DNA of 64,000 bases from Deltaproteobacteria bacterium (lineage in GTDB: Bacteria; Myxococcota_A; Polyangia; Polyangiales; JADJMO01), in contig JANYDK010000018.1 in NCBI GenBank assembly GCA_025363655.1, positions 1 to 64,000 on the forward strand. The letters run 5' to 3'. Of this stretch, positions 10,368 through 51,667 are shown piece by piece. A program made the translations under genes and the position numbers. Every line of letters starts with the position of its first letter. Position 1 is the first letter of the stretch. Under the pieces are notes generated by a model. That model saw only the letters and a program-made list of their open reading frames with translations, was not told the origin of the DNA and did not search any database.

Positions 10368-10398
10368 GGCAGGGTCGAGCGTACTACACTCGTGGAGG

Positions 10399-18315: not shown

Positions 18316-18322
18316 GGCTGGG

Positions 18323-18346: not shown

Positions 18347-18352
18347 CTGCGG

Positions 18353-28699: not shown

Positions 28700-29463
28700 C
28701 GCGACGATCTCGAAAGGAACTCGTTCACCGCGAAGACGAAGCTCTCGGCCGCCTCGACGAACGGCGCGTGCCCGCATCGCTCGAGGAGGACGAGCTCGCC
28801 GCCGAGCAGTTCGGCCGTCTCGCGCGCCGTCGCGGTCGGGATCGGATCGTCCTCGCCGTGGATCACGAGCGTTGGAATCGCACGAAGCGAGGGCAGGCAC
28901 GATCGCAGGTCGAACCCGGCGAGGCCACGGTACGCCGCTTCGCCGATGGCCTCGTCGGACGCCACGAGGTGCAGCACGCGGACGCGCGAAGGGTCGAAGA
29001 GAAAGGCCCCGATCCGACGTGCGATGGGATCGTTCCCGAGCGCGAGGACCTCGGGCCGTGCCATGGCGAGCTCGACACGGGCGCGCACCTCCGCATCGGC
29101 CGCTCCGTGCACCGGTGGCGGCGAGACCAAGATCATGTTCGCGACGCCCTCCGGATGCTCGAGCGCGTAGAGCATCGCGAGCAGCGCGCCCCAGGAAAAC
29201 CCGAGCAGATCGACGCTCGTGGGCCCGAGGAGCCGACGCGCGCGATCGACATCGGCGACGTGCGCGTGATGATCGACCGGCTCGCGTCGTTGATCGTAGT
29301 AGACGACGCGCCGCCCTCGACCTTCTCTGGCGTCACGATTGTCGGCGCGATCGGCAGCGAGCGCGTCGAGGTGTGGCCGAAGCACGTGGTGCGTCTCGCC
29401 GGGCCCGCCATGGAGGACGAGGAGCGGTCGCCCCTCCGGCGGTCCATGCGCGATCAGCTCCAT
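28696..29463 (-). CDS. Alpha/beta hydrolase, proline-iminopeptidase (S33)-like
   Basis: A 255-residue protein with an intact catalytic set: HGGPGETHH as the oxyanion loop near residue 18, the nucleophile elbow GFSWG, Asp in GEDDPIP and His in CGHAPF. HGGPG plus a DQR segment (YYDQRREP) is typical of S33 proline iminopeptidases, which remove N-terminal proline or related residues from peptides. In this cluster it could trim a processed peptide or hydrolyse another cluster product. It lies 22 bp after an rSAM gene and overlaps the B12-rSAM start. Confidence 0.75.
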   Translation of the reverse strand: MELIAHGPPEGRPLLVLHGGPGETHHVLRPHLDALAADRADNRDAREGRGRRVVYYDQRREPVDHHAHVADVDRARRLLGPTSVDLLGFSWGALLAMLYALEHPEGVANMILVSPPPVHGAADAEVRARVELAMARPEVLALGNDPIARRIGAFLFDPSRVRVLHLVASDEAIGEAAYRGLAGFDLRSCLPSLRAIPTLVIHGEDDPIPTATARETAELLGGELVLLERCGHAPFVEAAESFVFAVNEFLSRSSR

Positions 29464-30520: not shown

Positions 30521-32353
30521 CTACTCCGCCGCCAAATTCGTGCCCTTCGGCACCGGCTGCATCAGCGCGTACCCGTGCGCGCGGACGAAGTTGACGTGCA
30601 TCCCATCGCACTTCTCGTCGTGCGCGCAGCCTTTGCAGCGAAGCGATTTCGTCGAGTAGTGCTCCTTCAGATAGCGTCGCGCGTAGCGGAAGATCTCGAC
30701 GCGCCCCTCGGACGACATCATCGCCGTGTCGAGGACACGCGGCCTCTCGCGCGGCGGCCGACCGAGCACGCAGGCAGGCACCCCTTCGACCGGCACTTGG
30801 TGCGTGAAGTCGCCGAAGAACGCACGCAGATCGAGGTCGTGCTCGGAAGACTCGGTGAGACGCTCGTACGTCGGTTGTCGCAAGACGAGTCGGGCCGGCG
30901 CCGCGGTCATCGATCGCAAATATGGCTCGTTTTCTCGCGTCAAATCGAGCACGACCTCGAAGCTCGCGTGCATCGCCAAGAGCCGCTCGGCATCTTTCGC
31001 TTGACGGACGACGACGCGTTCGAGCCCCGGTACATCGGCGGTGATCGCGCTCGAGTCGTCGAGCTCGAGCTCGAGGCGACGAACCCGCGGAAAGCGTGCG
31101 ATCGCCTTCGTCGCCGTCGCCAGATCGGGCGCACGGACCCAGAGCACTTCGCTTCGACCTTCGACCTCGTCGAGCGAGAATGGCGCATGTTCGCGCATCG
31201 GCCCCGTCGGTCGGGACGGCAGCATGCGGAGGCGACGACCTTTCGCCAGCGGCTCGGGCGCAGACGCGAGCGGAGCTGATGCGACGGCTTCGACGGGTGC
31301 ACCTGCCGGACGCTTCTTCCGCGCCGTCGCCGGATCACCGCCATAGACCGCGGGCTGCTTCGCCTCCCACTCGGTGTCGACGCGAAGCACCGAGAACGAC
31401 TTCTCGTCGACCGTGTCGAGGACGCCTTCCAGCGTGTCGCAGAGACGCTCCAAATAGCAGTATTTGCAGCGCGCCGGCTCGCGACAGTCGAGCCACTCGC
31501 CGGCGTCGAGGAGCCGCGCGAACTCTTCCTTGCGACCGCGCACCTCGTCGTTGAGCTTGTACGGATCTTGAATCAGGTGCTCGAAGCCTTCGAGGTGCTG
31601 CGGCGGAAAACGATTCATCCAGATGTGGACGTCGTCGCGCTTCGAGTAGGCGAGTGCTTCCTGCAAGTACGGGCGCGCTTCTTCGAGATCGTAGAAGAGC
31701 GTGTCGCGACCATCGGTGAAGGCGCGCCCGAAGGGGATCACCTGCAACAGATCGAACTCCTTCACGCCCATCCCGATGAAGAGCGCGAGCATCTCGGGCA
31801 GATGCTTCACGTTGGCGCGGTTGATGACGATGTCGATGTTGACGATCGGCCGGCCATCGCTCAGCGCGTTGCGGAGCCCCGTCATCTCCTCTTCCCAAGC
31901 GCCTTTGGTGCCGACCAGCGCGTCGTGGACCTTGGCGCTCGGACCATGAATCGAGAACGTGATTTCGGAGAGCCCTTCGTCGATGGCGCGGCGGATGAAG
32001 TCGCCGTACGCGAAGAGCCGACCGTTGGTCACCGTCTGGATCTTGCTGTAGCCGGCGAGGCGTCCGAGGCGCACGAAGTCGACGAAATTTGGGTGAATCG
32101 TCGGTTCGCCGCCCGACAAGATGAGCCGCGTCGCGCCCTTCTTCCGACCATCGAGCACCTGCGCTTTCACCTCGTCGCGATCGCGCATCTGGCCATCGTG
32201 CGCGTGGGCATCGAGACAGAAGACGCAGTGATCGTTGCAATCGAAGGTGAGCCGCACCCAGTTGCGCTTCTCGTGGGCCGCGTCCTCGTGCTCGGCGATC
32301 TTCGCCGCCTCGAGAGACGTCTCTTTGTACGGCTCATCGGCCGACGACTGCAT
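30521..32353 (-). CDS. Radical SAM protein fused to a degenerate second rSAM-like half
   Basis: A 610-residue protein from ATG 32353. The N-terminal half is a complete rSAM enzyme: CNDHCVFC (C39, C43, C46), SGGEPT (80-85), a SIHGPSAKVHDALVG segment, and CKYCYLERLC at about 294-303. After a Pro/Ala-rich linker (about 340-390), residues 400-610 have barrel-like alternation without CxxxCxxC, but end in CKGCAHDEKCDGMHVNFVRA and ALMQPVPK, the same C-terminal signature as the other cluster rSAM proteins. This suggests an ancestral duplication in which the second copy lost its SAM cluster but kept the auxiliary one. Its role may be structural or substrate-binding. Confidence 0.82.
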   Translation of the reverse strand: MQSSADEPYKETSLEAAKIAEHEDAAHEKRNWVRLTFDCNDHCVFCLDAHAHDGQMRDRDEVKAQVLDGRKKGATRLILSGGEPTIHPNFVDFVRLGRLAGYSKIQTVTNGRLFAYGDFIRRAIDEGLSEITFSIHGPSAKVHDALVGTKGAWEEEMTGLRNALSDGRPIVNIDIVINRANVKHLPEMLALFIGMGVKEFDLLQVIPFGRAFTDGRDTLFYDLEEARPYLQEALAYSKRDDVHIWMNRFPPQHLEGFEHLIQDPYKLNDEVRGRKEEFARLLDAGEWLDCREPARCKYCYLERLCDTLEGVLDTVDEKSFSVLRVDTEWEAKQPAVYGGDPATARKKRPAGAPVEAVASAPLASAPEPLAKGRRLRMLPSRPTGPMREHAPFSLDEVEGRSEVLWVRAPDLATATKAIARFPRVRRLELELDDSSAITADVPGLERVVVRQAKDAERLLAMHASFEVVLDLTRENEPYLRSMTAAPARLVLRQPTYERLTESSEHDLDLRAFFGDFTHQVPVEGVPACVLGRPPRERPRVLDTAMMSSEGRVEIFRYARRYLKEHYSTKSLRCKGCAHDEKCDGMHVNFVRAHGYALMQPVPKGTNLAAE

Positions 32354-32432: not shown

Positions 32433-33989
32433 GTGGCGGCCCCTCGGTCGATCGGCGTCATCGGTGGCGGAACGGCCGGATATTTCGTGGCGCTGGCGAT
32501 TCGTCGCGCCTTCCCCGACGTCGCGGTCACCGTCGTCGAGTCGAAAGACATCCCGATCATCGGCGTCGGCGAGGCATCGACCACGCTGATGCCGCCGTTC
32601 CTCCACACGCAGCTCGGCCTCTCGCCGATCGACCTCTTTCGCAAGGTCGGCGTCACCTTCAAGCTCGGCATCGACTTCCAGTGGGGACCGGCGGGCGAGG
32701 ACTTCACCTATCCCTTCGGCGACGCCGATCCGATCGACGCCTTCGCCTTCGACGGACATCTCCGCGAGCAGTCCCTCGTCTCGCAGCTGATGACGCAGGG
32801 AAAAGCACCCATTTTGCGTGGGCCCGACGGCGACGTGCTCTCGCTCTTGCCGCGTCTCAAGTTCGCCTACCACCTCGACAACGCGCCCTTCGTCACCTTC
32901 CTCGCCGATGCGGCGCGCGCGGCGGGCATCGTCCACCTCGAGGCGACGCTCGAAGCGGCGGTCGCTCGCGAAGATGGACGAGGCATCGATCACCTTCGCA
33001 CCAAGGACCGCCGCGAGCTTCGCTTCGACGTCTACGTCGACGCCACCGGCTTTCGCTCGCTGCTCCTCGAAGGGGCAGCTGGCTCGCCTTTCCTCAGCTA
33101 TGCCGGCAGCCTCTTCTGCGATCGCGCGCTGGTGGCGACGGTCCCTCAGGCCAACGGTCTCATTCGGCCGGCCACCACTGCCGAGACGATGGACGCCGGT
33201 TGGTGTTGGCGCATCCCCGTGCGCGGGGAAGATCATCGCGGCTACGTCTACTCCTCGGCGTTCCTCGACGAGGCCGGCGCCGAACGAGAAATGCGCTCGA
33301 AAAACCATGGAATGGGCACGCCATCGACGGTGCGCTTTCGCTCCGGAAGACACCGCGACTTCTGGATCGGCAACACCGTCGCCGTCGGCAACGCCTATGG
33401 CTTCGTCGAGCCGCTGGAGTCGACCGCGCTCCACATGGTCATCCTCGAGCTCGCGTGGGTACTCGAAGGGGTGCGCATCATGTCGAACGACGACGAAGCA
33501 GCCACCTCGCGATTCCAAACGCGCGCCAACGAAGCCGTCGGCGGGCACTGGGACTACCTCCGATGGTTCCTCGGCACGCACTACAAGTTCAACCAGCGAC
33601 TCGACACGCCCTTCTGGCGCGCGGCCCGTGCCGACGTCGACGTCTCCGGTCTCTCTGCCGAGCTCGCGCGCTTCTCCCGCGAAGGCCCTTATCTCGCGGA
33701 AGGCGCGCGCACGCTCCCGGTCGCCGATCCGGCCTTCCACTATTCGGGCCTGATGATGCTCCTCCTCGGTCAACGCGCACCGTCGCCGCCAATCACTCGC
33801 TCGAGGACGTCGATCACGGAAGCCGCGTGGCGGGTCCGCAAAGACAAAGAGCGCCAAGTGCTCTCTCGCGCGCTCTCTCATGCCGAAGCGTTGCGACTGC
33901 TCGACGAACGACCAGAGCTCTTGCAAGCGCTCCTCGACGACCCGTCGTCGTGGCTACGCGGCGCGGCCGAACGCGTGACCGTCACGTAG
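32433..33989 (+). CDS. Flavin-dependent tryptophan-halogenase-type enzyme
   Basis: A 518-residue protein from GTG 32433. FAD binding is shown by GGGTAGY (11-17), with VGEASTT after the second strand. The Lys that carries the haloamine or HOX intermediate in this family is present in TFKLGIDF (K77). WCWRIP (W257, W259) is the WxWxIP halogenase motif, and GNAYGFVEPLESTALHM (320-335) contains the conserved acidic residue region. All key positions are therefore kept. Known members halogenate free Trp or aromatic moieties, including residues of some peptides. The terminal Trp of the HGS-repeat peptide is a natural candidate. It leads a three-gene rightward operon. Confidence 0.88.
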   Translation: MAAPRSIGVIGGGTAGYFVALAIRRAFPDVAVTVVESKDIPIIGVGEASTTLMPPFLHTQLGLSPIDLFRKVGVTFKLGIDFQWGPAGEDFTYPFGDADPIDAFAFDGHLREQSLVSQLMTQGKAPILRGPDGDVLSLLPRLKFAYHLDNAPFVTFLADAARAAGIVHLEATLEAAVAREDGRGIDHLRTKDRRELRFDVYVDATGFRSLLLEGAAGSPFLSYAGSLFCDRALVATVPQANGLIRPATTAETMDAGWCWRIPVRGEDHRGYVYSSAFLDEAGAEREMRSKNHGMGTPSTVRFRSGRHRDFWIGNTVAVGNAYGFVEPLESTALHMVILELAWVLEGVRIMSNDDEAATSRFQTRANEAVGGHWDYLRWFLGTHYKFNQRLDTPFWRAARADVDVSGLSAELARFSREGPYLAEGARTLPVADPAFHYSGLMMLLLGQRAPSPPITRSRTSITEAAWRVRKDKERQVLSRALSHAEALRLLDERPELLQALLDDPSSWLRGAAERVTVT

Positions 33990-34014
33990 CCTGGAAATGT
34001 CCTAGACTTTGCCG

Positions 34015-36324
34015 ATGCTGCGCGTCGTCGTGATTTTTCCGCCGCTCTCGGTGGCGCGGGATTTCATCGACTACCCCTACATGAGCGATCTCGGCGCGGT
34101 TCAAGCCGCTGCCGTACTTCGGGCTCGAGATGCCGAATTCGAAGTGACGCTGGTGAATGCGTTCGCGCTTCCCGGCTCGGGTCTCGGCATGCGAGACGAT
34201 GGTCGGCTCCTCATGGGTGCGAGCGTCGACGAGGTGCTCGCGAAGACCCCCGACGCCGACGTCTACGTCGTCGCCTACACGCCGTTTCATCGCCCGCCCC
34301 ATCGTGACGAGCTCCTCGGTGCCCTGCTCGTCGGCCTCGCCGCGCGCACGAGTGGGCGTCGCATCGTGCTCGCCGACCTGTACCAATCGGGCCAGCACTA
34401 CGTCGAGACGGACGGCGTCCTCGACGCCTATCCCGAGGCCGTCGCATGGCTGAAATACGAGGCTGAGGTCACGCTTCCGCAGCTCGTGACGAGCATCGTG
34501 AACGACGTCGTCACGGGCCACCCGAAGGGCATCGTGCGGGGCGTCGCGCCGACCGATCTCGATGCGCTGCCGCTGCCCGCGTGGGATCTCGTCGATCTCT
34601 CCGCACGCGACCTCTTCCTCTCGCGCGTGGTCCGCGATCTCGGTCGTGGCGCGTGGGCCTTCCCCGTCGCGGGTCGCACGTTGCCCGTCGTCACCTCACG
34701 AGGCTGTCCTTTCACCTGCGTCCACTGCAGCTCGAACCCGGGTCGGCTCGCGGGCGAAGCGAAGACGCAGCGTCGCCTCTCGGCAGCTCGAATGCGCGAG
34801 CTCTTCGCACATCTCGCGTCCCTCGGCGCCACGCGGCTCGAGGTGCTCGACGAGCTGGTGAACGTCAACGAGCGTCATTTCGAGGCGTTTCTCGATTCGA
34901 TCGAGGCCGCGAACGTGGCCTTCGACGTGCCCAACGGGATGCGCGCCGACTACCTCTCGGCCGAGCACCTGCGTCGCATGCGAGGCCGCGTCGCCACCGT
35001 CAGTGTCAGCGCCGAGAGCGGCGTGCAACGCGTCGTCACCGAGGTGGTCGGCAAGCGACTCGAGCTCACGGAGGTGACGCGCGTCGCCGAAGACGCCCAT
35101 CGCGAAGGCGTCCCGTTGATGATCCACTTCATCATCGGCTTGCCCGGAGAGCGCGCCGAGGAGATCAACGGCACGCTCGCCTATGCGCTCGACCTCTGGG
35201 ATCGATTTCGCGCTTTCCCCGCCGTGCAATTCGCGACGCCGCTCCCCGGCACGCAGCTCGCGCACGGCCGTGCGTTGCCCGTCCTTCACGACGGCGATTG
35301 GGGCCCCATGTTCCAGACCGCGCCTTCGCAGCCGGGCGCGCTCGTCTCTGCCGACGAGCTGCGAAAGTTCAAGTGGACCTTCGACGCGCGTCTCGCTGCC
35401 TCCAACGGTCCGTCGAAGGTGATCATGAACGTCACCTACGTCTGCAACAACCGCTGCACCTTCTGCGCGGTCGGCACGCGGACGCAGGTCGATGGCCACC
35501 CCACGCGCCAACGCGAAGCGCTCGAAGAATACCGGCGTCGTGGCGTACGGATGGTCGACTTCGACGGCGGCGAACCGACGCTCAACCCCGAGCTCATTCC
35601 GCTCGTCCACCACGCGCGTCGCATCGGCTACGAGCGGGTCAACGTCACCACCAACGGGCGGATGTGCTTCTACGAGGACTTCGCGAAGAAGCTCGTGCAC
35701 TCGGGGCTGACGACGCTCCTCTTCAGCGTCCACGGTCCCGACGCCAAGAGCCACGCTCGCGAGGTCGGCGTCGCCGAGGCCTTCGAGCAGACGGTCGGCG
35801 GCATCAAGCACGCGCGCGCGCACGCACCTTCGGGCGTCGAATTGGGGATGAACGTCACCGTCACCAAAGGCAATTGGAACAAGCTCGAAGAGATCGCGCT
35901 CCTCGCCCTCGAGCTCGGGCTCCCGTGGCTCAACGTCCAGTTCCTCACGCCGTTCGGTCGCGCCACCACCCACGTTGCGCCCGACACCCAAGCTGCGGCC
36001 GACGAAGCTCGTCGGGTGATCGATCGCTACCGCGATCGGATGAAGTTCCAGCTCATCAACCTCCCGTTCTGCTTCATGCCCGGCTACGAAGATCTGCTCA
36101 CCGGCGATCTGCTGAAGCTCGAGCGGCAGATGATCTTCGTGAACAACGACGAGGTGAACCTCGCGCAGTACCTCGCCGAGCGGCGCTCCAAGAAGCCGGT
36201 CTGCGCGACCTGTCCGCACGCTTGTTTTTGCGGCGGTTTCTACGAGCTGGAGAGCGCGCCCGAGCCGCCTTGGCTGATCACTCCCGAAGATCTCCTCCGG
36301 CCGATTCGGCGCGCGGAATCGTGA
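34015..36324 (+). CDS. Double radical SAM fusion: B12-type rSAM plus twitch-type rSAM
   Basis: A 769-residue protein from ATG 34015 (TTG 34009 is in frame). Residues 1-220 resemble a B12-binding domain. The first rSAM domain has SRGCPFTCVHC (C231, C235, C238) with IIGLPGERAEE, typical of B12-rSAM enzymes. A second rSAM domain starts near 465 with CNNRCTFC (C477, C481, C484), DGGEPT (517-522), SVHGPDAKSHAREVG and a C-terminal CATCPHACFCGGF auxiliary site. Two SAM-cleaving sites in one chain suggest a coupled pair of reactions, for example methylation followed by cross-linking; this is inference. Its stop overlaps the next start (GTGA). Confidence 0.85.
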   Translation: MLRVVVIFPPLSVARDFIDYPYMSDLGAVQAAAVLRARDAEFEVTLVNAFALPGSGLGMRDDGRLLMGASVDEVLAKTPDADVYVVAYTPFHRPPHRDELLGALLVGLAARTSGRRIVLADLYQSGQHYVETDGVLDAYPEAVAWLKYEAEVTLPQLVTSIVNDVVTGHPKGIVRGVAPTDLDALPLPAWDLVDLSARDLFLSRVVRDLGRGAWAFPVAGRTLPVVTSRGCPFTCVHCSSNPGRLAGEAKTQRRLSAARMRELFAHLASLGATRLEVLDELVNVNERHFEAFLDSIEAANVAFDVPNGMRADYLSAEHLRRMRGRVATVSVSAESGVQRVVTEVVGKRLELTEVTRVAEDAHREGVPLMIHFIIGLPGERAEEINGTLAYALDLWDRFRAFPAVQFATPLPGTQLAHGRALPVLHDGDWGPMFQTAPSQPGALVSADELRKFKWTFDARLAASNGPSKVIMNVTYVCNNRCTFCAVGTRTQVDGHPTRQREALEEYRRRGVRMVDFDGGEPTLNPELIPLVHHARRIGYERVNVTTNGRMCFYEDFAKKLVHSGLTTLLFSVHGPDAKSHAREVGVAEAFEQTVGGIKHARAHAPSGVELGMNVTVTKGNWNKLEEIALLALELGLPWLNVQFLTPFGRATTHVAPDTQAAADEARRVIDRYRDRMKFQLINLPFCFMPGYEDLLTGDLLKLERQMIFVNNDEVNLAQYLAERRSKKPVCATCPHACFCGGFYELESAPEPPWLITPEDLLRPIRRAES

Positions 36325-39949: not shown

Positions 39950-41704
39950 CTAATTCGAGAAGTTGAGCGTGTACGGCAGGCACGTCGCCGCCACGCTGGC
40001 CTTGTAGAAGACGCGCACGAAGACCGTCGCGTTCGCGGTCGACGTCGGCACGTAGGCGCCAGCGAGGATCGGTGTGTAGAGAGGATCGGTCGAGACGCCC
40101 GTCGCCGACGCGAGGTACGTGTTCTTCCAATCGGTGATGCCGGTCGCCGTGGTGCCGCCCGAGCCGCACGCCGGCACCGTTCCGCCGCAGCTTCCGAAGA
40201 CGACTTCGAACTGGAAGACGCCTCCCGGGTTGGTGGTGAACTGGATGCGCGGGGTCGCCAACTTGTCGATCTTGGTGTTGAGGAAGACGACGCGAATCCA
40301 GTCGTCGCGCCCGACGACCGGCGCGTTGCCGGTGAACACCTTGGAGGAGCCGACGCCGACCGTGCCGACGTCGGACGTCGAGCCTGCCGTCGCCGCGCAG
40401 CTGTGCGGCGTGGTCGAGTCGGCGCACTCGCAGCCGTCGGCGAAGGTGCCGTCGACCTCGACCCACCCGGTGGTGCAGTCCTTCGTCTTGCACGCGCCGA
40501 CCGAGCACGACGTGGTGTCGGTGTGAGCCGGCGGCGGGCAGAGCGCCGCCGACGACCCATCGTCGGAAACGCCGTTGCAGTCGTTGTCTTTTCCGTCGCA
40601 AATTTCCGCGGTTCCGCCGCCGGGCAAGCAAACCTGCGTCTTGCCACCGAAGCAGCTCGGTATCGTCGTCGAGCAGACGCCGAGGCCGCAGCTGAGGAGC
40701 GGCAGCCCGTCGTCGATGACGCCGTTGCAGTCGTTGTCCTTGCCGTCGCAGACCTCGATGGACGGCGACTTCGCGCTGCAGGTGCCAGGCGCGCCGCCGA
40801 CGCAGGCCGGTGCCGTGTTGAGACACTCACCGACGCCGCACGAGAGCGGCGTGAGCCCGTTGTCGGGAGTGCCGTCGCAGTCGTTGTCTTTGCCGTCGCA
40901 CTTCTCGAAGCTCGGCGTGCCCGGGACGCACGTCTGCGGAACGCCGGCGACGCACTTGTCGACCGTCTTCGCGCACTCGCCGACGCCGCAGGAGCTGGTG
41001 CCGAACGCGGTGTCGATGACGCCGTCGCAGTCGTTGTCTTTGCCGTTGCAGATCGGCGTGCCGGGCGTCTTTGGAGTGCACGTCTTCGGCGCGCCACCTT
41101 CACAGTTGCTGACGGTGACCGTGCACTCGCCCTTGCCACACGTGGTGGTGGAGAAGCCGTTGTCGATCGTGCCGTCGCAGTCGTCGTCTTTTCCGTTGCA
41201 GACCTCGGCCGTTCCGGTGAGCGGCTTGCAGGTCTTCGGTGAGCCGTCGACGCAGTTTTTCTGGGTGATTTTGCACTCACCGACGCCGCAGGTGGTGTCG
41301 CCGAGGTCTTCGTCGATCTTGCCGTTGCAGTCGTTGTCCTTGCCGTCGCAGACCTCGGGCGAGGGCTCCTTCGGTCGACAGGTGGTAGGCACGCCGGCCT
41401 CGTCGCACGCGTTCACCGTCGTCGTACACTCGCCGATGCCGCAGGAAATCGTCAGCCCGCCGCCGGGATCGCAGGGTCCTGCGTCGTTGGTGTCGGGCTT
41501 GTTGCTGTCGGCCGGAGCTGAGTCGCTGACGTCGGCAGCGCTCGTGTCGCCGGTTCCCGTGTCGCCGACGCTGGTGTCGGGGGGGCTGCTGCCTGAATCG
41601 ATCTCTTCGGTGGCGCTCGCGCCGGTCGCACAGCCGAAGCTGCAAAGACCGAGACCGAAGAGGACCGCGGGCACGAACGATGAGTACAGTCGACGAGACT
41701 CCAT
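39950..41704 (-). CDS. Lipoprotein with six MopE-type Cys/Asp-rich repeats
   Basis: Start ATG 41704 gives 584 residues and a signal peptide ending at lipobox SFGC (the frame also opens at 41722). After an Asp/Thr/Ser linker there are six tandem repeats of about 50 residues, each with CGxGEC and a C(D/N)GKDxDCxGxxD(D/N)G core. These match the putative metal-binding motif of MopE-like surface proteins, where Asp side chains bind Ca or Cu. The C-terminal 170 residues form a beta-rich domain ending in YTLNFSN, shared with the lipoprotein at 44881-45597. Probably surface exposed. Confidence 0.85.
   Translation of the reverse strand: MESRRLYSSFVPAVLFGLGLCSFGCATGASATEEIDSGSSPPDTSVGDTGTGDTSAADVSDSAPADSNKPDTNDAGPCDPGGGLTISCGIGECTTTVNACDEAGVPTTCRPKEPSPEVCDGKDNDCNGKIDEDLGDTTCGVGECKITQKNCVDGSPKTCKPLTGTAEVCNGKDDDCDGTIDNGFSTTTCGKGECTVTVSNCEGGAPKTCTPKTPGTPICNGKDNDCDGVIDTAFGTSSCGVGECAKTVDKCVAGVPQTCVPGTPSFEKCDGKDNDCDGTPDNGLTPLSCGVGECLNTAPACVGGAPGTCSAKSPSIEVCDGKDNDCNGVIDDGLPLLSCGLGVCSTTIPSCFGGKTQVCLPGGGTAEICDGKDNDCNGVSDDGSSAALCPPPAHTDTTSCSVGACKTKDCTTGWVEVDGTFADGCECADSTTPHSCAATAGSTSDVGTVGVGSSKVFTGNAPVVGRDDWIRVVFLNTKIDKLATPRIQFTTNPGGVFQFEVVFGSCGGTVPACGSGGTTATGITDWKNTYLASATGVSTDPLYTPILAGAYVPTSTANATVFVRVFYKASVAATCLPYTLNFSN
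40541..41443 (-). repeat. Six tandem ~150-bp coding repeats
   Basis: The repeats encode the six Cys-rich units of the MopE-like lipoprotein. Copies differ throughout, including synonymous positions, so they are old rather than recent slippage products. Confidence 0.85.
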
Positions 41705-41909
41705 CGAAGGCCTCCCCGGCACATCGAGCCAGCCTTCGAGGCTAACAGACGCACGTCCTCATGGAGGAACGAACTGCGCCGGACGGACGATCGCGCCTTC
41801 GCGAGTAGGGCGATGTGCGCCTGCTCGTTCGCGTCGTCTGCTTGTCGATCGCGCGTCGCGTCCGCTACACTCGAAGGACGCGCGCGCACGTGGCGCCGTC
41901 GGAGGCACG

Positions 41910-42462: not shown

Positions 42463-43545
42463 GTGACCGAGAGCGCGCGGAGCGTCGTTCGACTCGGCTC
42501 CGCGTGTGACAACGCCTGCGTATTTTGCGGTCAAAACGGCGCTCCCGAGCTGGTATTGGAGCGGGCAGCGATCGACCTCGCGCTGACGACGGCTCGCGTA
42601 CGATCGTGCGAGGTCACCCTCACCGGGGGCGAGCCGACCTTGCGCGCAGACCTCGACGACATCGTCCGCGCGGCTCGCGCGCTCGGCTTCGATCGCGTCG
42701 GCATCCAGACCAACGGACGACGACCCGAGAGGATGCGCCCGCTCGTCGCCGCCGGCCTCACCGACGTCCACCTTTCGATTCATGGTGGAGTCGCGGCCGC
42801 GCACGACTACCACACCGGCATTCCCGGCAGCTTCACCGCCGCGAGCGCCACGCTCTCGGAGGCCCGCGCGCTCGGCATCGACGCCGTCGTCACCACCGTG
42901 CTCACTCGCTCGAACGCCCGCTCGCTCGCCGAAACCGCGCGGCTGGTCATCGACCGACGCGCCAGCGCTTGGTGTCTCGCGGTGCCACGCATTCGTGGAC
43001 GCGCGGCCGAGCACTTCGATCGCATCGTCCCACGCCTCGGCATCGTCATTCCCTTCGCGCTCCACGCCATGCAAGTCGCCATCGCCGCGAAGATCCCTGT
43101 CTTCGTCCGCGGCGCGCCGCTCTGCCTCCTCGGTCCTTTCGCCAAACATTCGCTCGCCGAAGAAGGACGCGCTTTCGGTGAAGCTTGCGAAGGATGCGCG
43201 GCGCGGCCTTCGTGTCCCGGCGTCGAGCCGACCTACCTGCGACGTTTCGCCGGCGACGAGCTCTCGGCGAACCCGAAGAGTTCCGCGGCAGAGCTCAATC
43301 CCATCGCCCGCCTCTTCGTGGGGCCGGGAGAGCTCGCTCCGGCGGTCGAGCGCGTCGTCGCCGAGGCTCCTGCCGCCGCGCGCGTCGCGCTCCCGATGCT
43401 CGGCAAGGTGCAGCCGGCCCGCGAAGAAGTACCGCGCGCGGTCGAGAAAAAGTCTGGTCCAGCGCTGCGTGAGCTCTTCAAAGAGCTGTTCGTCGAGAAG
43501 CAGGCGAACGCCGCGGGCGAGCGCGCGGGAGAGGATCGCGACTGA
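42463..43545 (+). CDS. Radical SAM protein, twitch type
   Basis: A 360-residue protein from GTG 42463. The cluster motif is CDNACVFC (C15, C19, C22), with TGGEPT at 54-59 and LSIHGGVAAAHDYHTGIPG with GSF as in its paralogues. CEGCAARPSCPGVEPTYLRR and GDELSANP at about 244-275 give the shared auxiliary-cluster signature. The last 80 residues are a Lys/Glu/Ala-rich helical tail absent from the other copies. Its stop overlaps the next rSAM start (TGATG). With the Tat-signal gene these form a three-gene operon aimed at the HGS-repeat peptide gene. Confidence 0.82.
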   Translation: MTESARSVVRLGSACDNACVFCGQNGAPELVLERAAIDLALTTARVRSCEVTLTGGEPTLRADLDDIVRAARALGFDRVGIQTNGRRPERMRPLVAAGLTDVHLSIHGGVAAAHDYHTGIPGSFTAASATLSEARALGIDAVVTTVLTRSNARSLAETARLVIDRRASAWCLAVPRIRGRAAEHFDRIVPRLGIVIPFALHAMQVAIAAKIPVFVRGAPLCLLGPFAKHSLAEEGRAFGEACEGCAARPSCPGVEPTYLRRFAGDELSANPKSSAAELNPIARLFVGPGELAPAVERVVAEAPAAARVALPMLGKVQPAREEVPRAVEKKSGPALRELFKELFVEKQANAAGERAGEDRD

Positions 43546-44483
43546 TGGCCAACATCGGCTACATGCAGATCGTCCGGCACTGCAACCAATACTGCCGCTT
43601 CTGCTCCAACCCCTCGTCGGGCTACATGCTCGACCTCGACACCGCCAAGCGCGAGATCGACGACTTCGCCGAACGCGGATATTTCGGCGTCATTCTCACC
43701 GGCGGCGAGCCCTCGCTCTCCGATTTGATCCCCGAGATCACGCGCTATGCGGTTTCGAAGAGGCTCCACGTGCGGATGATCACCAACGGCTCGCGCCTCG
43801 GCAGCGATCCCGACTTGGCGCGCAGCTACGTCGAGGCGGGGCTGGCGCACTTCCACGTCAGCATCCACTCCTGTCGCGATGAGCTCGAAGATTTCCTCAC
43901 CGGCGTGCGCGGCAGTCACGAGCTGGCGATGAAGGCGCTCGCGAACCTCGGCGCTGCAGGGGCGACGGTCAACATCAACACCGTCATCAACAAGTTCAAC
44001 GCCGATCACCTCGACGAGAACGTGAAGGCGTTCACCGCGCGCTTCCCGTTCCTCCGGCACTTCGTCTGGAACAACCTCGATCCGTCGATGGGCCGCGCCG
44101 AGACCAACCGCGACACCGCGCACCGGCTGGCCGACTTCGAGCTCTCCCTCGCGCGCGCGATGCGCTACCTCCACAAGACGGGCCGCACCTTCCGCGTCGA
44201 ACGCGTGCCGCTCTGTTACATGACCGAGTTCGCGCACTGCTCGACCGAGACGCGAAAAATCGTCAAAGGCGAAGAGCGCATCGTCCATTTCCTCGACGAA
44301 AAAGGGACGATTCGACAAACTGACTTCCGCCACCCGAAGGCCGCGACCTGCACGCACTGCTCGCTCGACGACGTCTGCGGCGGTCTCTTCGAGCTCGGCG
44401 CGCACTACGACTTGGGGGAGCTACACCCGGTGTTCGTCTCGAAAGACGACATCGTCCGGAAGGTGCGCGCCGACGTCGATTGA
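43545..44483 (+). CDS. Radical SAM protein adjacent to the HGS-repeat precursor
   Basis: A 312-residue protein with CNQYCRFC (C13, C17, C20), TGGEPS (52-57), a VSIHSCRDELEDFLTGVRG segment, and CTHCSLDDVCGGLFEL with GELHPVF at the C-terminus, the compact auxiliary signature. It has a second Cys pair region (PLCYMTEFAHC) as in several relatives. Its stop is 23 bp from the converging stop of the HGS-repeat gene, making it the rSAM enzyme closest to the putative precursor and a first candidate to modify it. I could not confirm that it is HxsC. Confidence 0.82.
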   Translation: MANIGYMQIVRHCNQYCRFCSNPSSGYMLDLDTAKREIDDFAERGYFGVILTGGEPSLSDLIPEITRYAVSKRLHVRMITNGSRLGSDPDLARSYVEAGLAHFHVSIHSCRDELEDFLTGVRGSHELAMKALANLGAAGATVNINTVINKFNADHLDENVKAFTARFPFLRHFVWNNLDPSMGRAETNRDTAHRLADFELSLARAMRYLHKTGRTFRVERVPLCYMTEFAHCSTETRKIVKGEERIVHFLDEKGTIRQTDFRHPKAATCTHCSLDDVCGGLFELGAHYDLGELHPVFVSKDDIVRKVRADVD

Positions 44484-44506: not shown

Positions 44507-44785
44507 CTACCAGCTGCCGTGCGAGCCGTGGCTGCCGTGGGAACCGTGCGAGCCGTGACTGCCGTGCGAACCGTGGCTGCCGTGTGAACCATGGCTGCCG
44601 TGCGAGCCGTGCGAGCCGTGCGAGCAGTGCTGCCCGAACAAGTTGCCGCCGCCGGGGCCTGCGCCCTGCTCACGGTTCGAAGCGTCGAGGGCGGTCTTGG
44701 AGATCCGATGCTCGGTCTCCGAGAGCATGCCGCTGGCCTTTCGCTTGAATGTCGGAAGGTCGTCTTTTCCGCTTCCGTCGGCCAT
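44507..44785 (-). CDS. Putative RiPP precursor: leader plus Cys-Ser-(His-Gly-Ser)x12-Trp
   Basis: A 92-residue peptide from ATG 44785. The start is fixed by GGAGGA at 44792-44797, 6 nt upstream; GTG 44803 would place that site inside the coding region. Residues 1-53 form a charged leader (LPTFKRKASGMLSETEHRISKTALD at about 10-34) followed by a Gly-rich linker. C54 and S55 precede exactly twelve HGS units (56-91) and a final Trp92. HxS spacing is the substrate type of HxsB maturases and fits three-residue cyclophane chemistry on His. Ser codons vary (TCG 5, AGC 4, and one each of TCC, AGT, TCA), so the repeat is kept at protein level. A metal-binding His-rich protein is the main alternative. 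Confidence 0.85.
   Translation of the reverse strand: MADGSGKDDLPTFKRKASGMLSETEHRISKTALDASNREQGAGPGGGNLFGQHCSHGSHGSHGSHGSHGSHGSHGSHGSHGSHGSHGSHGSW
44513..44620 (-). repeat. Twelve tandem 9-bp units encoding His-Gly-Ser
   Basis: The 108-bp array encodes HGS twelve times without interruption. Gly is GGC nine times and GGT three times; His is CAC eleven times and CAT once; Ser uses five different codons. This synonymous variety argues against a young microsatellite and for selection on the peptide. Confidence 0.95.
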
Positions 44786-44791
44786 CGCGTT

Positions 44792-44797
44792 TCCTCC
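44792..44797 (-). promoter_or_regulatory. Strong ribosome binding site of the HGS-repeat gene
   Basis: GGAGGA lies 6 nt upstream of ATG 44785 and decides the start over the in-frame GTG at 44803. It is one of the clearest Shine-Dalgarno sites in the window, as expected for a highly expressed precursor. Confidence 0.8.
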
Positions 44798-44823
44798 AGA
44801 CACTTGGTGCTGTCAGCCTGCTC

Positions 44824-46358: not shown

Positions 46359-46520
46359 ACGAGACAAGGCCGACTCGGTCGTCGTGGACATGCCCAGCGC
46401 TGGCGGCGATGATGCGCGTGCGTTCTCGCCGTGTCGAACGCGTTGAAACATCGGCTGGGCCTGCGCGACCCATGGGTGCAGCGCTTGCCGTCGTCCGAGT
46501 CAGAGAAAGGCTCCCCATCG

Positions 46521-48839
46521 ATGCCCGTTGAAGGACACCACCACGCGCTCACGATCGACGGCATCAGCTCCGAAATTCGCGTCGTCGTCTTCGACGGGCA
46601 TGAAGGCATCTCCGAGCTCTTCCAGTTCGAAGTGGTGATCGCGAGCGACGACCACGCCATCGATTTCGACGACGTCCTCGGCAAGAAGTCGCTGCTGACG
46701 ATCGGCAACGGCGACAACATCCGCCACGTGCACGGCATCGTCGCGCGCTTCGAGATGGCCGAGCAGTTCGCGACGGGGCGGGGGGTCACGGTCTATCGCG
46801 TGACCCTCGTGCCGCTGGCGCACGAGCTTCGATTCCGTCGTGACAACCGCATCTTCCAAGAGCTCAAGGTGCCCGAGGTGGTGAAGAAGGTGCTCGAGGG
46901 TGCGGGGCTCGCCAGCAACACCGACTTCAAGCTGTCGCTGCAAGGCACCTACGCCGCGCGTGAATACTGCGTGCAGTACCACGAGAGCGATTGGGACTTC
47001 GTCTGCCGGCTCCTCGAAGAAGAGGGCATCTTCTATTTCTTCGAGCATCACGAAGACAAGCACGTGATGGTCATCGCCGACAAAAACGCGGTCTTCGCGC
47101 CGATCACCGGCGAGGCCACGCTCGCCTACAACCCCTCGGCGGGCGCGCTCGGATCGATCGACGGCAACGACAACCGCGTCACGCGCTTCTCGCTCTCGCG
47201 GTCGATGCGCACCGGCAAGGTGACGATTCGCGACTACGATTTCAAGAAGCCGAGCCTCAAGCTCGAGTCGACGAAGGCCAGCGCCAAGTTCGCGGCGCTC
47301 GAGGCCTACGACTGGCCCGGCGAGTACGTGCTGCCGGCCGACGGCGACGGCATCGCCCAAATTCGCAGCGAAGAGCACAGCCGCATGGCGGTGGTGGCGA
47401 TGGGGAGCAGCATCTGCCCACGGCTCGTCCCGGGCTGGCTCTTCACGCTCAGCGAGCACCCGCGCGACGCGGTCAACGAGGAGTATCTCGTCACGCACGT
47501 CGAGCATCACGGGATGGAGCCGGGCGAGTCGATGACCTCGTCCGGTCGTGGCCCGTACACCAACAGCTTCGAGATCATTCCCAAGACGGTCGTCTATCGA
47601 CCGGCGCGAGTGACGCAGCGTCCGACGGTGAAAGGGGTGCAGACGGCGATCGTGGTCGGGCCCGCCGGGGAAGAGATCCACGTCGACGAGCACGCGCGCG
47701 TGAAGGTGCAATTCCACTGGGATCGCCTGGGAAAGCACGACGAGAAATCGTCGTGCTGGGTGCGCGTCAGTCAGATTTGGGCGAGCGGCGCCTTCGGCGG
47801 CATGTTCATCCCGCGCATCAAGGACGAGGTGGTCATCTCCTTCGAAGACGGCGATCCCGATCGGCCGCTGATCGTCGGTCGGGTCTATCACGGCACCAAC
47901 GTTCCGCCGTACCCGCTCCCTGCCAACAAGACCCGTAGCACCATCCTCTCGCGCTCGACTCCCAACGGCGAGGCCGGCAACGAGCTGCGCTTCGAGGACA
48001 AGAAGGGGAACGAAGAGGTCTACATCCACGCGCAGAAGGACGAGACCATCCTCGTCGAGAACGACAAGAACCAGACCATCGTCCACGACGAGACGCTGCT
48101 GGTGAAGCACGATCGCACCAAGACGATCAAGAACGACCAGACGCTGACCGTCGAGCACGACGACAAAATCACGGTCAAGAACGACCGCACCGAGACCATC
48201 GAGCACGACGAGACGGTGACGGTGAAGAACGACCGCACGATGACGGTCGAGAACGATCACACCGAGACGGTCAAGAACAACCAGACCATCCACGTCGAGG
48301 CCGATCAGACCGAGAAGGTCGACGGCAACGAGTCGCTGACGGTAGGCGGCGATCAGACGATCAAGATCAGCGGTGCGCGCGCGCTCCACGTCACCGGTGA
48401 CACCACCGAGAAGATCGACGGCAAGCTGACGCAGACCCTGACCGGCGACGTGGCGGCCGAGCTGAAGGGCAAGTCGGACACCAAGATCACCGGTGACGTC
48501 ACCACCAAGTACAGCGCCAAGCTCACCTCCGAGGTCGACGCCGACGTCACGCTCACCCACAAGGCGAAGCACACCCTCAAGGTCACCGATACGTTCACCA
48601 TCGAGTGCGGCTCGGCCAAGATCGTCCTCAAGGCCGACGGCACGGTGCAAATCACCGGCGTGAAAATCGAGGTCAAGGGCAGCGCCTCGGTGAAGGTCGC
48701 CGGGGCCCAGGTCGAGATCAAGGCCGACGCGACTGCCAAGATCGAGGCCGGCGCCAAGCTCGACTTGAAGGGCGCGCTCGTCGATCTCAACGGCTCGGGA
48801 CCGGTCAAGGTCGCCGGCGCGATCGTCGGTATCGGGTAG
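46521..48839 (+). CDS. vgrG: VgrG-type type VI secretion spike protein
   Basis: Start ATG 46521 gives 772 residues; upstream frame without features was left out. The N-terminal gp27-like half begins with HHALTIDGISSEIRVVVFDG, contains REYCVQYHESDWDFVCRLLEEEGIFYFFEH, and is followed by the gp5-OB fold (RVKVQFHWDRLGKHDEKSSCWVRVSQ). The C-terminal third is a long series of beta-helix repeats (NDxTxTVxHDxT type, then KITGDVTTKY and AKIEAGAKLDLKG units), forming the needle. No effector domain is fused, and no T6SS core, PAAR or effector gene lies in the window, so it is an orphan here. Confidence 0.92.
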   Translation: MPVEGHHHALTIDGISSEIRVVVFDGHEGISELFQFEVVIASDDHAIDFDDVLGKKSLLTIGNGDNIRHVHGIVARFEMAEQFATGRGVTVYRVTLVPLAHELRFRRDNRIFQELKVPEVVKKVLEGAGLASNTDFKLSLQGTYAAREYCVQYHESDWDFVCRLLEEEGIFYFFEHHEDKHVMVIADKNAVFAPITGEATLAYNPSAGALGSIDGNDNRVTRFSLSRSMRTGKVTIRDYDFKKPSLKLESTKASAKFAALEAYDWPGEYVLPADGDGIAQIRSEEHSRMAVVAMGSSICPRLVPGWLFTLSEHPRDAVNEEYLVTHVEHHGMEPGESMTSSGRGPYTNSFEIIPKTVVYRPARVTQRPTVKGVQTAIVVGPAGEEIHVDEHARVKVQFHWDRLGKHDEKSSCWVRVSQIWASGAFGGMFIPRIKDEVVISFEDGDPDRPLIVGRVYHGTNVPPYPLPANKTRSTILSRSTPNGEAGNELRFEDKKGNEEVYIHAQKDETILVENDKNQTIVHDETLLVKHDRTKTIKNDQTLTVEHDDKITVKNDRTETIEHDETVTVKNDRTMTVENDHTETVKNNQTIHVEADQTEKVDGNESLTVGGDQTIKISGARALHVTGDTTEKIDGKLTQTLTGDVAAELKGKSDTKITGDVTTKYSAKLTSEVDADVTLTHKAKHTLKVTDTFTIECGSAKIVLKADGTVQITGVKIEVKGSASVKVAGAQVEIKADATAKIEAGAKLDLKGALVDLNGSGPVKVAGAIVGIG
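48031..48350 (+). repeat. Degenerate coding repeats of the VgrG beta-helix
   Basis: About ten units of 8-10 codons with the pattern (N/H)D.T.T(V/I) encode the triangular beta-helix of the spike. They are diverged at DNA level. Confidence 0.75.
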
Positions 48840-48868
48840 CCGACGCGAGCTCGCCTCGAAAAATAGGT

Positions 48869-51667
48869 CTAGAACGTCTTCATCAGCTCCACCACCGCGC
48901 GCTCGTCGGCCGCGGTCATCTCCAACTCTTGCTGCACGTTCTTGAAGTGGACGACCTCTTCCATGGAAGAGAAGCGGCCGTCGTGGAAGAAGACGACGTT
49001 GTCCCAGGTGTCGACGAGGCTCGGCGCCTTGAACATGCCCGCGTCGCGATCGGGACGAGGCCGGAAATCGAGCTTCTGCTGCATCGGGTCCTTGCTCCCG
49101 AGCTCGCGATCGCCGCGGAGGCCGTGGAAAATCTCGGCGTCGCCGGCGGGGAAGAGGCTCTCGAAGAAGGTGCCGAGGATGACGTGCGCGTTGTCGGTCT
49201 TGGTCCCGATGTCGTAGAGCATGGGCTCGCCTTTGGGATCGCCGCCGCCGAGCGGTGACGTCGGATCGGGCTCGCCACTCGTGTACTGAGCGCCGTAGTG
49301 ACACGCGCTGCACTTGTCGGCGAAGACCTTCTTTCCCCGAGCGACGAGCAAGTCATCGACCTTCGGACCTTGCAAGCGCGGGATGCCGACGGCGACCCAC
49401 TTTGCCATCGCCTGCACGTCGTCCTCGGGGAGATCTCCGCCGAGTCTTTCGTGGACGATGGTGCGGACGAACTCGTCCGCGCTCGCGTGCGTCGCCGAGG
49501 CGTGGAGCCAGCCGCGACCCATGACGCCGCCACGAAGCGACATCGTGCGACGCTCGCCCTCCATCGTCCCCCACATCGAGCCATCGGTGCCGCCGTCGGG
49601 GTGACAGGTGACGCAGGCGCCGAGCGGGCTCGCCGTCAGCTTTGGGTACTTGTCGGGGTTCGACGATTCGAAGAGGATGCGCCCGCGGCGCAGGATGGGA
49701 TCGAGCGGATCGACATCCACCACCTTGATTTTAGCCACTTCGGTGATCGCGGGACGCTCCGGAATCCCGGCGACGTCGCGCACCAGTTGCTGATTCGTGA
49801 TGCCGTTGCCGCCGCGCGGGAGCTCGGGCACGTCGCGAAATTCGTAGGGCACGAACGACGGAGTCGGGAGCTTGCCGGGCTCGGCGTAGGCCGACAGATC
49901 GAGCGCGGAGACGAAGGTCGAGCTCTCGTAGACGACGTACCCCTTGCGACCATCGGGCGTGAGCGCGAGGCCGAGCGGTTGGCTTCCGTCGAGCGTGAAG
50001 TGACGTTGGGTCACCGGGTGCTTGGTGGCGGCGTCGTAGACGACGAGGTCGTCGGAGGCATAGGCGAGCATGAGCGCGCGTCGACCTCCGCGTGAGAATG
50101 CGACGAAGCGCGAGACCCCGGCCCCGCTGAGTCCGTCGACGTAGGTCGGGAAGGCGGGGAAGCGCGCCACCTGTTCGGTCGGTTTTCCGGGGATCATCTC
50201 GCGATCGACGATCTCCATCTCGAGCTGGAATCGTTCGCACTGGAGATACGAGAGCGGCACCGGCCTCTCGACGGCGCCCGGAGAGAGCATTCGATCGGCC
50301 TCCGCCGGGACGCGGGTGTCGAAGAGGAAGTAGAGCGCGGCCGCGAACTCGCCGGGTCGCACGTCGGCGGCGGCGGAGAGCGAGATGCTCTTCGGTCCCT
50401 TCTCGAAGATGGGCGCCGGTGCGATGCGCGCGCCCGGGGTCCAACCTTCGCTGCCGCCGGGATTGAGGAAGAGGCCGGCCAATTGGGTCGCGGTGCCTTC
50501 GGTGGTCAGCCGCTGCGCCGAGACGCCGAAGACGTCGGCGAGGCAGTGCGCCCGATCGAGGTTGAGCGAATCGAGCACCGCGATTTGTCTGGTCTCGGTG
50601 AGCGATTCGATGGCGACCACGCTCACCCAGCCTTCGTTCGCGAGGATCGGTCCGCGCGGCAAAAAATGGGTCACGAAGAGGGTCTTCGAATCGGGCGAGA
50701 CCGAGAGGCCGGCCGGCCGACGACCGATGTCGAGCGTGCGCTCGAGCCGAAAGTGATCCCCGTTGCGAACGAAGGAGGTGATCGCGTCGCCGACGTAGGC
50801 GCTGACGAACGCGCGACCGCCGTCGGGGGTGACGACGACGTGGCGTGGTTCGCGTCCGAGGCCGTCGAATTCACCGAACGTCTGCACGACCTTGCGCGCG
50901 CGGCGATCGATGATCGAAAGGCGGTTGATCGTCGGCTCTGTCACGAGCACGAAGGCGCCGTCGGGCGTGACGGCGAGACTGCTCGGGTGTCCCTCGAGCG
51001 GAATCGACGCGATGCGTGTGTCGGAGGCGGTGTCGATGACCGCGAGGGCATCGAAATCACCGAGCGCTGCCCAGGCTTCCTTGCCGTCCGGCGTGACGAC
51101 GATCGGGCTCGACGCCGTCGACGTGCGCGCGGTGGTGGTGCCGCCGATGTCCAACGTCATCGTCGTCACGTCGCCGTCGGGGACGCCGATCGAAAAGCGC
51201 GCGATGCCTTCGGGACCGACGCCCCCGAGGTCGATCGTGCGTGCGACGGTCGGCTCGGCGAACGGATCGTTGGTGAAGTCGTAGAGCGCGTTCGCCGAGA
51301 GGTCACGCATGCTCGCGCGCATCGCCGCGAGCCCGAGCGCATGGGTGTTCTCGACGTAGAGCTCGATCCAGAGGATCCCCGGACGAGCGGCGAGACGCTT
51401 CGCGAATGCAGTCAGTCGTAGCTGCGATCCACCGGTGATTTTCAGTGGATCGGCGCTCGGAGCGAGCGTCGGTCGAGCGAGCGAGGGGCTCTTCGGATCG
51501 ATGGTCAGCTGGAAAGTCTCCCGCACGAGCGCGGGCCTGACGTCGGGCACCGTCGTCGGCGGCTCGAGCGACTCGACCTCGTTCTTGCTGCACCCATCGA
51601 GCGCCATCGCGCCGACGGCGGCCCACGCAAGACAAGCGATGCGCCCGATCTGTCTCCACCTGACCAT
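48869..51667 (-). CDS. YVTN beta-propeller/di-haem cytochrome c peroxidase-like lipoprotein
   Basis: A 932-residue protein with a lipoprotein signal (ALDGC). The middle is a YVTN-type propeller with repeated VVTPDGKEAW, AVTPDGAFVLV, VVTPDGGRAFV and ALTPDGRKGYVV blades. The C-terminal 260 residues have two haem c sites, CVTCH (near 682) and CSACH (near 785), plus DTWDNVVFFHDGRF and a distal region as in MauG/CcpA-like di-haem peroxidases. The family reduces peroxide or oxidises protein or small substrates. The propeller could bind a partner. The protein should face the periplasm or cell surface and needs the cytochrome c maturation system. Confidence 0.85.
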   Translation of the reverse strand: MVRWRQIGRIACLAWAAVGAMALDGCSKNEVESLEPPTTVPDVRPALVRETFQLTIDPKSPSLARPTLAPSADPLKITGGSQLRLTAFAKRLAARPGILWIELYVENTHALGLAAMRASMRDLSANALYDFTNDPFAEPTVARTIDLGGVGPEGIARFSIGVPDGDVTTMTLDIGGTTTARTSTASSPIVVTPDGKEAWAALGDFDALAVIDTASDTRIASIPLEGHPSSLAVTPDGAFVLVTEPTINRLSIIDRRARKVVQTFGEFDGLGREPRHVVVTPDGGRAFVSAYVGDAITSFVRNGDHFRLERTLDIGRRPAGLSVSPDSKTLFVTHFLPRGPILANEGWVSVVAIESLTETRQIAVLDSLNLDRAHCLADVFGVSAQRLTTEGTATQLAGLFLNPGGSEGWTPGARIAPAPIFEKGPKSISLSAAADVRPGEFAAALYFLFDTRVPAEADRMLSPGAVERPVPLSYLQCERFQLEMEIVDREMIPGKPTEQVARFPAFPTYVDGLSGAGVSRFVAFSRGGRRALMLAYASDDLVVYDAATKHPVTQRHFTLDGSQPLGLALTPDGRKGYVVYESSTFVSALDLSAYAEPGKLPTPSFVPYEFRDVPELPRGGNGITNQQLVRDVAGIPERPAITEVAKIKVVDVDPLDPILRRGRILFESSNPDKYPKLTASPLGACVTCHPDGGTDGSMWGTMEGERRTMSLRGGVMGRGWLHASATHASADEFVRTIVHERLGGDLPEDDVQAMAKWVAVGIPRLQGPKVDDLLVARGKKVFADKCSACHYGAQYTSGEPDPTSPLGGGDPKGEPMLYDIGTKTDNAHVILGTFFESLFPAGDAEIFHGLRGDRELGSKDPMQQKLDFRPRPDRDAGMFKAPSLVDTWDNVVFFHDGRFSSMEEVVHFKNVQQELEMTAADERAVVELMKTF

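Follow-up and report, generated by a model that had tools for sequence, protein, structure and literature searches.

A His-Gly-Ser repeat peptide of the HxsA4 family as a probable RiPP precursor within an island of rSAM genes

The window, that is, the whole stretch of 64,000 nucleotides analyzed here, contains on its minus strand (44507–44785) a gene for a His-Gly-Ser repeat peptide, which is very probably an HxsA4 RiPP precursor modified by the enzymes of the island around it, judging from sequence comparisons. This island spans 39 kb (5.8 to 44.8 kb) and carries 14 rSAM genes, encoding 16 rSAM domains with 16 intact CxxxCxxC motifs. The open reading frame of 92 codons begins with the ATG at 44785 and ends with the TAG at 44507–44509. 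The encoded peptide of 92 aa, MADGSGKDDLPTFKRKASGMLSETEHRISKTALDASNREQGAGPGGGNLFGQHCS(HGS)12W, is composed of a leader with an LPTFKR motif, a Gly-rich hinge, and an HCS-(HGS)12-W core, and the last residue is the sole Trp of the precursor. The sequence upstream of the gene, ...CTGGAGGAAACGCG-ATG, contains a strong Shine–Dalgarno site (GGAGG; region 44786–44799, minus strand). Upon re-reading of the sequence, the description given in the earlier note (a 92-aa frame with a strong RBS and CS-(HGS)12-W, lying 23 bp from an rSAM gene) was found to be exact. The rSAM gene in question, rS12 (stop at 44483), is arranged tail to tail with the precursor gene across the 23-bp gap; owing to this convergent orientation, the two genes do not form one operon and are not co-transcribed.

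The peptide scored 96.7 bits against the NCBIfam profile NF038313 (His-Xaa-Ser repeat protein HxsA4; profile positions 2–93), for which the curated cut-off is 55 bits. Low-complexity matching of the repeat alone was ruled out as the cause of this score, since the 55-residue leader, with the repeats removed, still matched NF038313 at E 5e-4, and 58 of 74 homologues carry the motif [LIV]P.[hydrophobic or K].[RKC] in the leader, where shuffled sequences would be expected to give 1.4. The canonical HxsA models gave no match to the peptide at E 1, the HxsA2 and HxsA3 models scored it under their cut-offs, and no other HxsA4 match over cut-off was present in the genome of 9.0 Mb. The profile comparisons show that the window peptide is a member of the named HxsA4 family, not of a new family or a new class of locus. 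The novelty that the earlier note had attached to the peptide was therefore not retained: the family already has a name, and the Cys and Trp caps as well as the variable repeat number are family-wide. Likewise, the terminal Trp and the single core Cys, which had been regarded as departures, turned out to be the HxsA4 norm, as all of the 76 distinct homologues end in Trp and 68 of them carry HCS ahead of the repeat. In the literature searched, we found no paper on HxsA4 and no report by anyone of its modification.

The repeat itself is strikingly uniform. Across the 76 homologues, 1224 HGS, 10 HAS, and 2 HSS were counted among 1236 units, and the number of units per peptide ranged from 8 to 52, with 8–19 in most members. 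The leaders of the same-genus genomes G178 and G355 are identical, and their peptides have 11 and 13 units, respectively. HxsA4 peptides with 41 to 48 HGS units adjoin HxsB at four loci (L123, L124, L144, and L143). A further locus, L211, in which HxsA4 adjoins HxsB/HxsD, belongs to the cultured strain Plesiocystis pacifica SIR-1. In the window gene, six different 9-mers encode the 12 HGS units, all of the differences between units are silent, and Ser codons of the TCN and AGY classes alternate; both classes are mixed in 54 of the 76 homologues. Because the Ser codon classes are mixed and the unit differences are silent only, a recent slippage artefact or chance was ruled out as the origin of the repeat, which, to judge from its codons, is maintained at the protein level. 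With Gly at every third residue, the repeat could also be read as a collagen-like structural element, in which (G-S-H)n would serve as a Gly-X-Y strand of a fibre or triple helix, and Pfam Collagen (PF01391) did give a weak match of 21.9 bits. This score, however, is under the gathering cut-off of 27.2, the repeat lacks Pro and reaches only 8–19 units in most members, and HxsA4 is tightly associated with rSAM maturases, so that we consider the collagen-like reading scarcely credible.

HXS systems have reportedly been defined computationally, from gene neighbourhoods, and no chemistry of an HXS system was found in the literature searched. In the island, HxsB (5831–7324, minus strand, ATG at 7324; TIGR03978, 570 bits against a cut-off of 370) is an SPASM-type rSAM maturase with a predicted N-terminal beta3-alpha3 (RRE-like) domain. 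Directly upstream of it lie, with overlapping ends, an HxsD-like gene whose start and stop overlap its neighbours (7324–7587, minus strand; NF038315, 71.9 bits against 41) and hxsD (7584–8111, minus strand; TIGR03976, 59.8 bits against 50). HxsC4, an rSAM maturase named for HxsA4 systems (29486–30517, minus strand; NF038332, 567 bits against 500), takes the place of canonical HxsC in the island; for the latter (TIGR03977, cut-off 267.9), the highest value among the scanned proteins was 111.5 bits, obtained by adding the scores of two domains of a 1439-aa protein. The earlier note had correctly assigned HxsB/HxsD-like genes to the same island, all three at 5.8–8.1 kb scoring over their cut-offs, and its distance of about 37 kb between the precursor and HxsB agreed with the measured 37.2 kb (from the HxsB start at 7324). 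Its picture of the HXS gene set was only partly right, in that HxsB and HxsD had been seen and the matching HxsC4 at 29486–30517 had been missed, as had the fact that the precursor and HxsC4 make up a pair with a name of its own.

At the precursor end of the island, the gene for the rSAM protein rS11 (42463–43545, plus strand; NF038332, 100.7 bits, under the cut-off of 500) overlaps the start of that for rS12 (43545–44483, plus strand; PF04055, 85.9 bits), a 312-aa rSAM protein with a C-terminal Cys cluster that is convergent with HxsA4. In alignments, rS12 was the most conserved enzyme of the set, with 90% identity in the nearest relative and 81–82% in another family of the order, and rS11 is paired with rS12 in G178 and G355 and in the nearest relative. 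As a marker specific for HxsA4, rS12 was rejected, because many of its relatives, with identities of about 60%, are found by themselves: such proteins occur away from any HxsA4 or HxsB in many Myxococcota (L206, L224–L238, L256–L260, and others), which suggests a second role for this rSAM family. Relatives of rS12 with 68–73% identity and rS11, rS9, and HExxH neighbours were also seen in MAGs (L189, L196–L200, and L253), several of which are labelled Elusimicrobia; at L196, HxsB adjoins an HGS peptide whose leader is different and longer. A MAG contig labelled Klebsiella pneumoniae (L203) carries a myxobacteria-like HxsB/HxsD/rS12 island and is probably mis-binned or mislabelled.

The rest of the island is made up largely of further rSAM genes. 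Single rSAM proteins are encoded at 8140–9066 (minus strand; PF04055, intact CxxxCxxC), 10048–11949 (plus strand, start uncertain; PF04055), 13112–13996 (minus strand; PF04055, 39 bits), 21933–22940 (minus strand; PF04055, 68 bits), and 30521–32353 (rS9, minus strand; PF04055), along with a PA0069/Rv2578c-like rSAM protein assigned by profile matches (20790–21926, minus strand). The 1439-aa protein (13996–18315, minus strand) has two complete rSAM domains, seen as two PF04055 stretches and two CxxxCxxC motifs, and rS10 (34009–36324, plus strand) likewise has two rSAM domains in two PF04055 stretches. An rSAM-methyltransferase fusion (18287–20152, plus strand; PF04055 and PF13489) and a B12-binding, C-methyltransferase-like rSAM protein (26747–28900, minus strand; PF04055, with ApyD/RiPP C-methyltransferase as the best NCBIfam matches, under cut-offs) complete the rSAM complement. 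Besides the halogenase described below, the accessory genes encode an aKG-HExxH-type peptide beta-hydroxylase with an HEFSH motif (11952–13328, minus strand; TIGR04267, 89.3 bits against a cut-off of 40; PDB matches 22nu and ChlH 8s5f), a SAM-dependent methyltransferase (20156–20785, minus strand; PF08242), a UbiA-type prenyltransferase (22927–23709, minus strand; PF01040, 54.5 bits), and an alpha/beta hydrolase. Weak DUF483 matches were noted in the protein at 9063–10367 and in the C-terminus of that at 13996–18315, and these segments are possibly a substrate-binding module shared within the island. A VgrG spike protein and a beta-propeller/cytochrome c-like protein are encoded just outside the island (46431–51667).

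The co-occurrence of the precursor with maturases was examined across the phylum. HxsA4 was found over cut-off in 115 of 379 genomes and HxsC4 in 34, and 30 of these 34 also had HxsA4 over cut-off (Fisher p 2e-13); some lineages have HxsA4 without HxsC4. We read 60 HxsA4 regions with about 10 kb on each side, together with 20 control regions taken mostly from the same complete genomes. An rSAM domain occurred within about 10 kb, mostly at less than 400 bp, in 43 of the 60 regions and in none of the 20 controls (p 4e-9), proportions that do not represent a random sample because the 60 regions were drawn from the stronger HxsA4 matches, mostly on longer contigs. Using tblastn with the window proteins, we detected HxsB in 37 of the 60 regions, HxsD in 36, rS12 in 22, rS11 in 21, HxsC4 and rS9 in 18 each, the HExxH enzyme in 14, and the rSAM-methyltransferase in 12, with no hit to any of them in the controls; since paralogues were assigned by best hit, these counts are loose for the rSAM proteins. 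The search for homologues beside rSAM genes that the earlier note had proposed, carried out here within the phylum, hence placed 43 of 60 near such genes and 17 away, so that they do not lie mainly away from them. Taken with the HxsA4, HxsB, HxsD, HxsD-like, and HxsC4 scores over cut-off, this strongly supported the assignment of the peptide as an rSAM-associated RiPP precursor of HXS type. The 17 loci whose flanks of about 10 kb lacked an rSAM domain were L073, L075, L076, L083, L085, L086, L088, L107, L115–L118, L120, L121, L136, L137, and L139. HxsC4 is encoded elsewhere in several of these genomes, and none was found in others; modification of the precursors at such loci could fall to enzymes acting in trans or to unknown ones. 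The only HxsC4 of a near-complete genome of 13.2 Mb (L072 and L092, G339:C1) is separated by about 9 Mb from the locus that holds HxsA4, HxsB, and HxsD.

These neighbourhoods also bear on the reading of the repeat as a metal-binding peptide (for Cu, Ni, or Zn), modified or not, with the nearby rSAM genes serving other substrates. Twelve regularly spaced His residues would suit that function, and a 590-residue Cys-rich MopE-like protein with six Cu-binding MopE motifs (PF11617) is encoded between the island halves (39950–41722). The MopE-like protein was nevertheless rejected as a part of the system, as its occurrence beside 18 of the 60 HxsA4 regions and 2 of the 20 controls was not significant (p 0.08). 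In addition, the rSAM association is specific, no metal transporter was recognized among the scanned neighbours, and metal binding would not need an invariant Ser. We therefore regard the metal-binding reading as improbable.

The nearest relative (L087/L181, JALHOE010000022.1) has the gene order MopE-like, rS11, rS12, HxsA4, HxsB, HxsD, HExxH, and rS2. The window keeps the rS11-rS12/HxsA4 junction of this relative, but HxsB is 37 kb off; because the arrangement is intact in the relative, the simplest account of the HxsA4–HxsB separation in the window would be a rearrangement. The distance from HxsB, taken by the earlier note as a distinguishing mark, loses that meaning here, as HxsA4 lies directly between the rS11-rS12 pair and HxsB in the nearest relative.

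To which chemistry the HGS units would be subjected was considered from the properties of HxsB. Its AlphaFold model (pLDDT 85) has a predicted beta3-alpha3 N-terminus that aligned with CteB over its length, and the best PDB match of the full model was CteB, followed by AnSME, TigE, and the cyclophane synthase ChlB. This fold neighbourhood is compatible with thioether, formylglycine, and cyclophane chemistry alike and does not decide among them. In profile searches, HxsB scored 96 bits against TIGR03942 (anaerobic sulfatase-maturating enzymes) and 56, 51, and 49 bits against the known cyclophane formers YhhB, AmcB, and XyeB, which are under the cut-offs of 425–450; thioether/nif11 maturases scored higher than the known cyclophane formers. 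As the thioether/nif11 profiles score more strongly and yet the core has one Cys, the chemistry of HxsB cannot be read from homology. HxsD was also considered as a leader-binding RRE and rejected, since its AlphaFold model did not resemble an RRE and gave no PDB match at E 0.001 or better.

The closeness of HxsB to CteB, a thioether former, together with the HCS conserved in 68 of 76 homologues, would fit a system in which HxsB and HxsC4 modify the single Cys only, forming a thioether like that of SCIFF/ranthipeptides, and in which the repeat serves as a passive spacer. Against this stand several HxsB-adjoining members that have no Cys (for example L141, L142, and L211, all three with GDPGHGS, and L255, with QHASHGS) and the invariance of the repeat units, which is unlike a spacer, and we judge such a Cys-restricted modification very improbable. 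Oxidation of Ser without a cross-link, to formylglycine or a dehydro/keto form, would instead give a rod of modified serines with free His. This is consistent with the matches of HxsB to anaerobic sulfatase-maturating enzymes (the TIGR03942 score and AnSME as second-best PDB fold), which convert Ser or Cys to formylglycine, and with a Ser as invariant as the His of the units. The equal invariance of His and the intervening Gly is left unexplained, however, and AnSME recognizes another sequence motif, so that Ser oxidation alone appears unlikely. Since H, G, and S are all fixed, His-donor and Ser-acceptor enzymes are known, and there is an HExxH precedent on a cyclophane peptide, we tentatively favour a His-Ser cyclophane, on the analogy of these systems, as a possible though still doubtful product. 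The known three-residue cyclophanes include those with His donors (HaaB and YhhB), Phe/Ser pairs, and the Ser acceptor MscB (PMC11002830), and an HExxH enzyme hydroxylates His on a cyclophane peptide (PMC12636437).

The invariant C-terminal Trp draws attention to the flavin-dependent tryptophan halogenase of MibH type encoded in the island (32433–33989, plus strand; PF04820, 343 bits), which has the GGGTAG motif and the WxWxIP motif in the form WCWRIP. Its best PDB match was 5UAO (407 bits, against 192 for the chain ranked next), the structure of MibH, an enzyme that chlorinates a Trp of a lanthipeptide, and SrpI brominates a C-terminal Trp (PMC12518702). Relatives of the halogenase (E below 1e-70) were detected in 7 of the 379 genomes of the phylum, and all seven had HxsA4 over cut-off (chance 7e-4 without the genome of the window itself), although related genomes are not independent in this comparison. 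Only two other genomes (G374 and G116) have the halogenase and HxsA4 on one contig, about 20 kb or less apart, and the remaining relatives are unlinked or on short contigs, without rSAM genes around. The co-occurrence is thus suggestive, not proof, of a tie between the halogenase and HxsA4. This link points to the invariant terminal Trp as a modification site in some lineages, and we would put halogenation of the terminal Trp of HxsA4 in this organism at an even chance, given the gene content. A second precursor, or a Trp-ending peptide beside halogenases elsewhere, was sought, and no convincing candidate emerged. While the island halogenase is nearest to MibH, and HxsA4 would present a C-terminal Trp as the SrpI substrate does, the halogenase is not in a lanthipeptide or proteusin cluster as MibH and SrpI are (PMC12518702), and HxsA4 is its presumed substrate.

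Among known systems, the closest is HxsA4/HxsC4 itself (NF038313/NF038332), since the window precursor and maturase are over the curated cut-offs and the leader and (HGS)n-W core are conserved. In contrast to many relatives, in which the two genes are directly adjacent, the window has them 14 kb apart, HxsB is 37 kb from the precursor, and halogenase, UbiA, and B12-rSAM genes are extra. With the canonical HXS systems (HxsA, HxsB, HxsC, and HxsD; Haft and Basu, as cited in PMC9062424), the window shares HxsB, HxsD, and a His-x-Ser repeat substrate, whereas it has no canonical HxsA match, no rSAM protein at the HxsC cut-off, and a single fixed HGS unit with a Trp cap. As in triceptides, an aromatic residue is followed two places on by a potential beta-carbon partner and rSAM enzymes are at hand, the aromatic-x-x motif being H-G-S in 1224 of 1236 units of the family; the review reports no His-Ser pair, however, and HxsA4 has many tandem units and several rSAM enzymes instead of one (PMC11002830). 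The island further pairs the same enzyme types as ChlB/ChlH, an rSAM enzyme and an aKG-HExxH enzyme hydroxylating Asp and His on a cyclophane peptide (cited in PMC12636437), and matches to the solved ChlB/ChlH chains were obtained both with the fold of HxsB and with the HExxH protein; here they are separate genes in a larger set, and the substrate sequence is unrelated. TvgA/TvgB likewise combines a tandem-repeat precursor (TVGG) with repeated modification by an rSAM enzyme, differing in the unit and in the chemistry, which is cyclopropylglycine formation (PMC9062424).

From the genes described above, which were read directly along with their family membership and co-occurrence, we infer the enzymes acting on HxsA4, the recognition of its leader, the order of the steps, and the exact bonds, as follows. 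The RRE-like domain of HxsB would bind the N-terminal leader (LPTFKR...GML), and HxsB together with HxsC4, the HxsD proteins, and the rS11/rS12 pair would modify the His-Gly-Ser units in succession, most likely by a C-C or similar oxidative cross-link per unit, from the His side chain to the Ser beta carbon. The aKG-HExxH enzyme would mark the His beta carbons, and the MibH-like halogenase would, in this lineage, act on the sole Trp at the C-terminus.

What is new here, in terms of gene content, is the presence of 16 rSAM domains in 14 genes, an aKG-HExxH peptide hydroxylase, and a MibH-like halogenase in one HxsA4 island. In its full and admittedly speculative form, which we consider unlikely to hold in every part, the proposal is that several rSAM enzymes build a rigid rod of His-Ser cross-linked units with beta-hydroxylated His and a halogenated C-terminal Trp cap. 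The resulting RiPP would resemble a polymer, with the number of repeats (8 to 52 in the family) fixing its length, and it might be a metal- or redox-active cofactor rather than an antibiotic, given that no transporter or immunity gene was recognized in the scanned part. The locus is of interest because its rSAM set is large, because of its link to the halogenase, and because it can easily be tested directly: it offers a simple, testable form of an HXS system, with one precursor, one repeated unit, the core HxsB, HxsD, HxsD-like, HxsC4, and rS11/rS12 proteins, and two accessory enzymes whose action could be read from mass shifts (+16 for the HExxH enzyme and +34 for Cl or +78 for Br for the halogenase). 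If several of the rSAM enzymes do act on HxsA4, the product would be, to our knowledge, among the most heavily rSAM-processed RiPPs.
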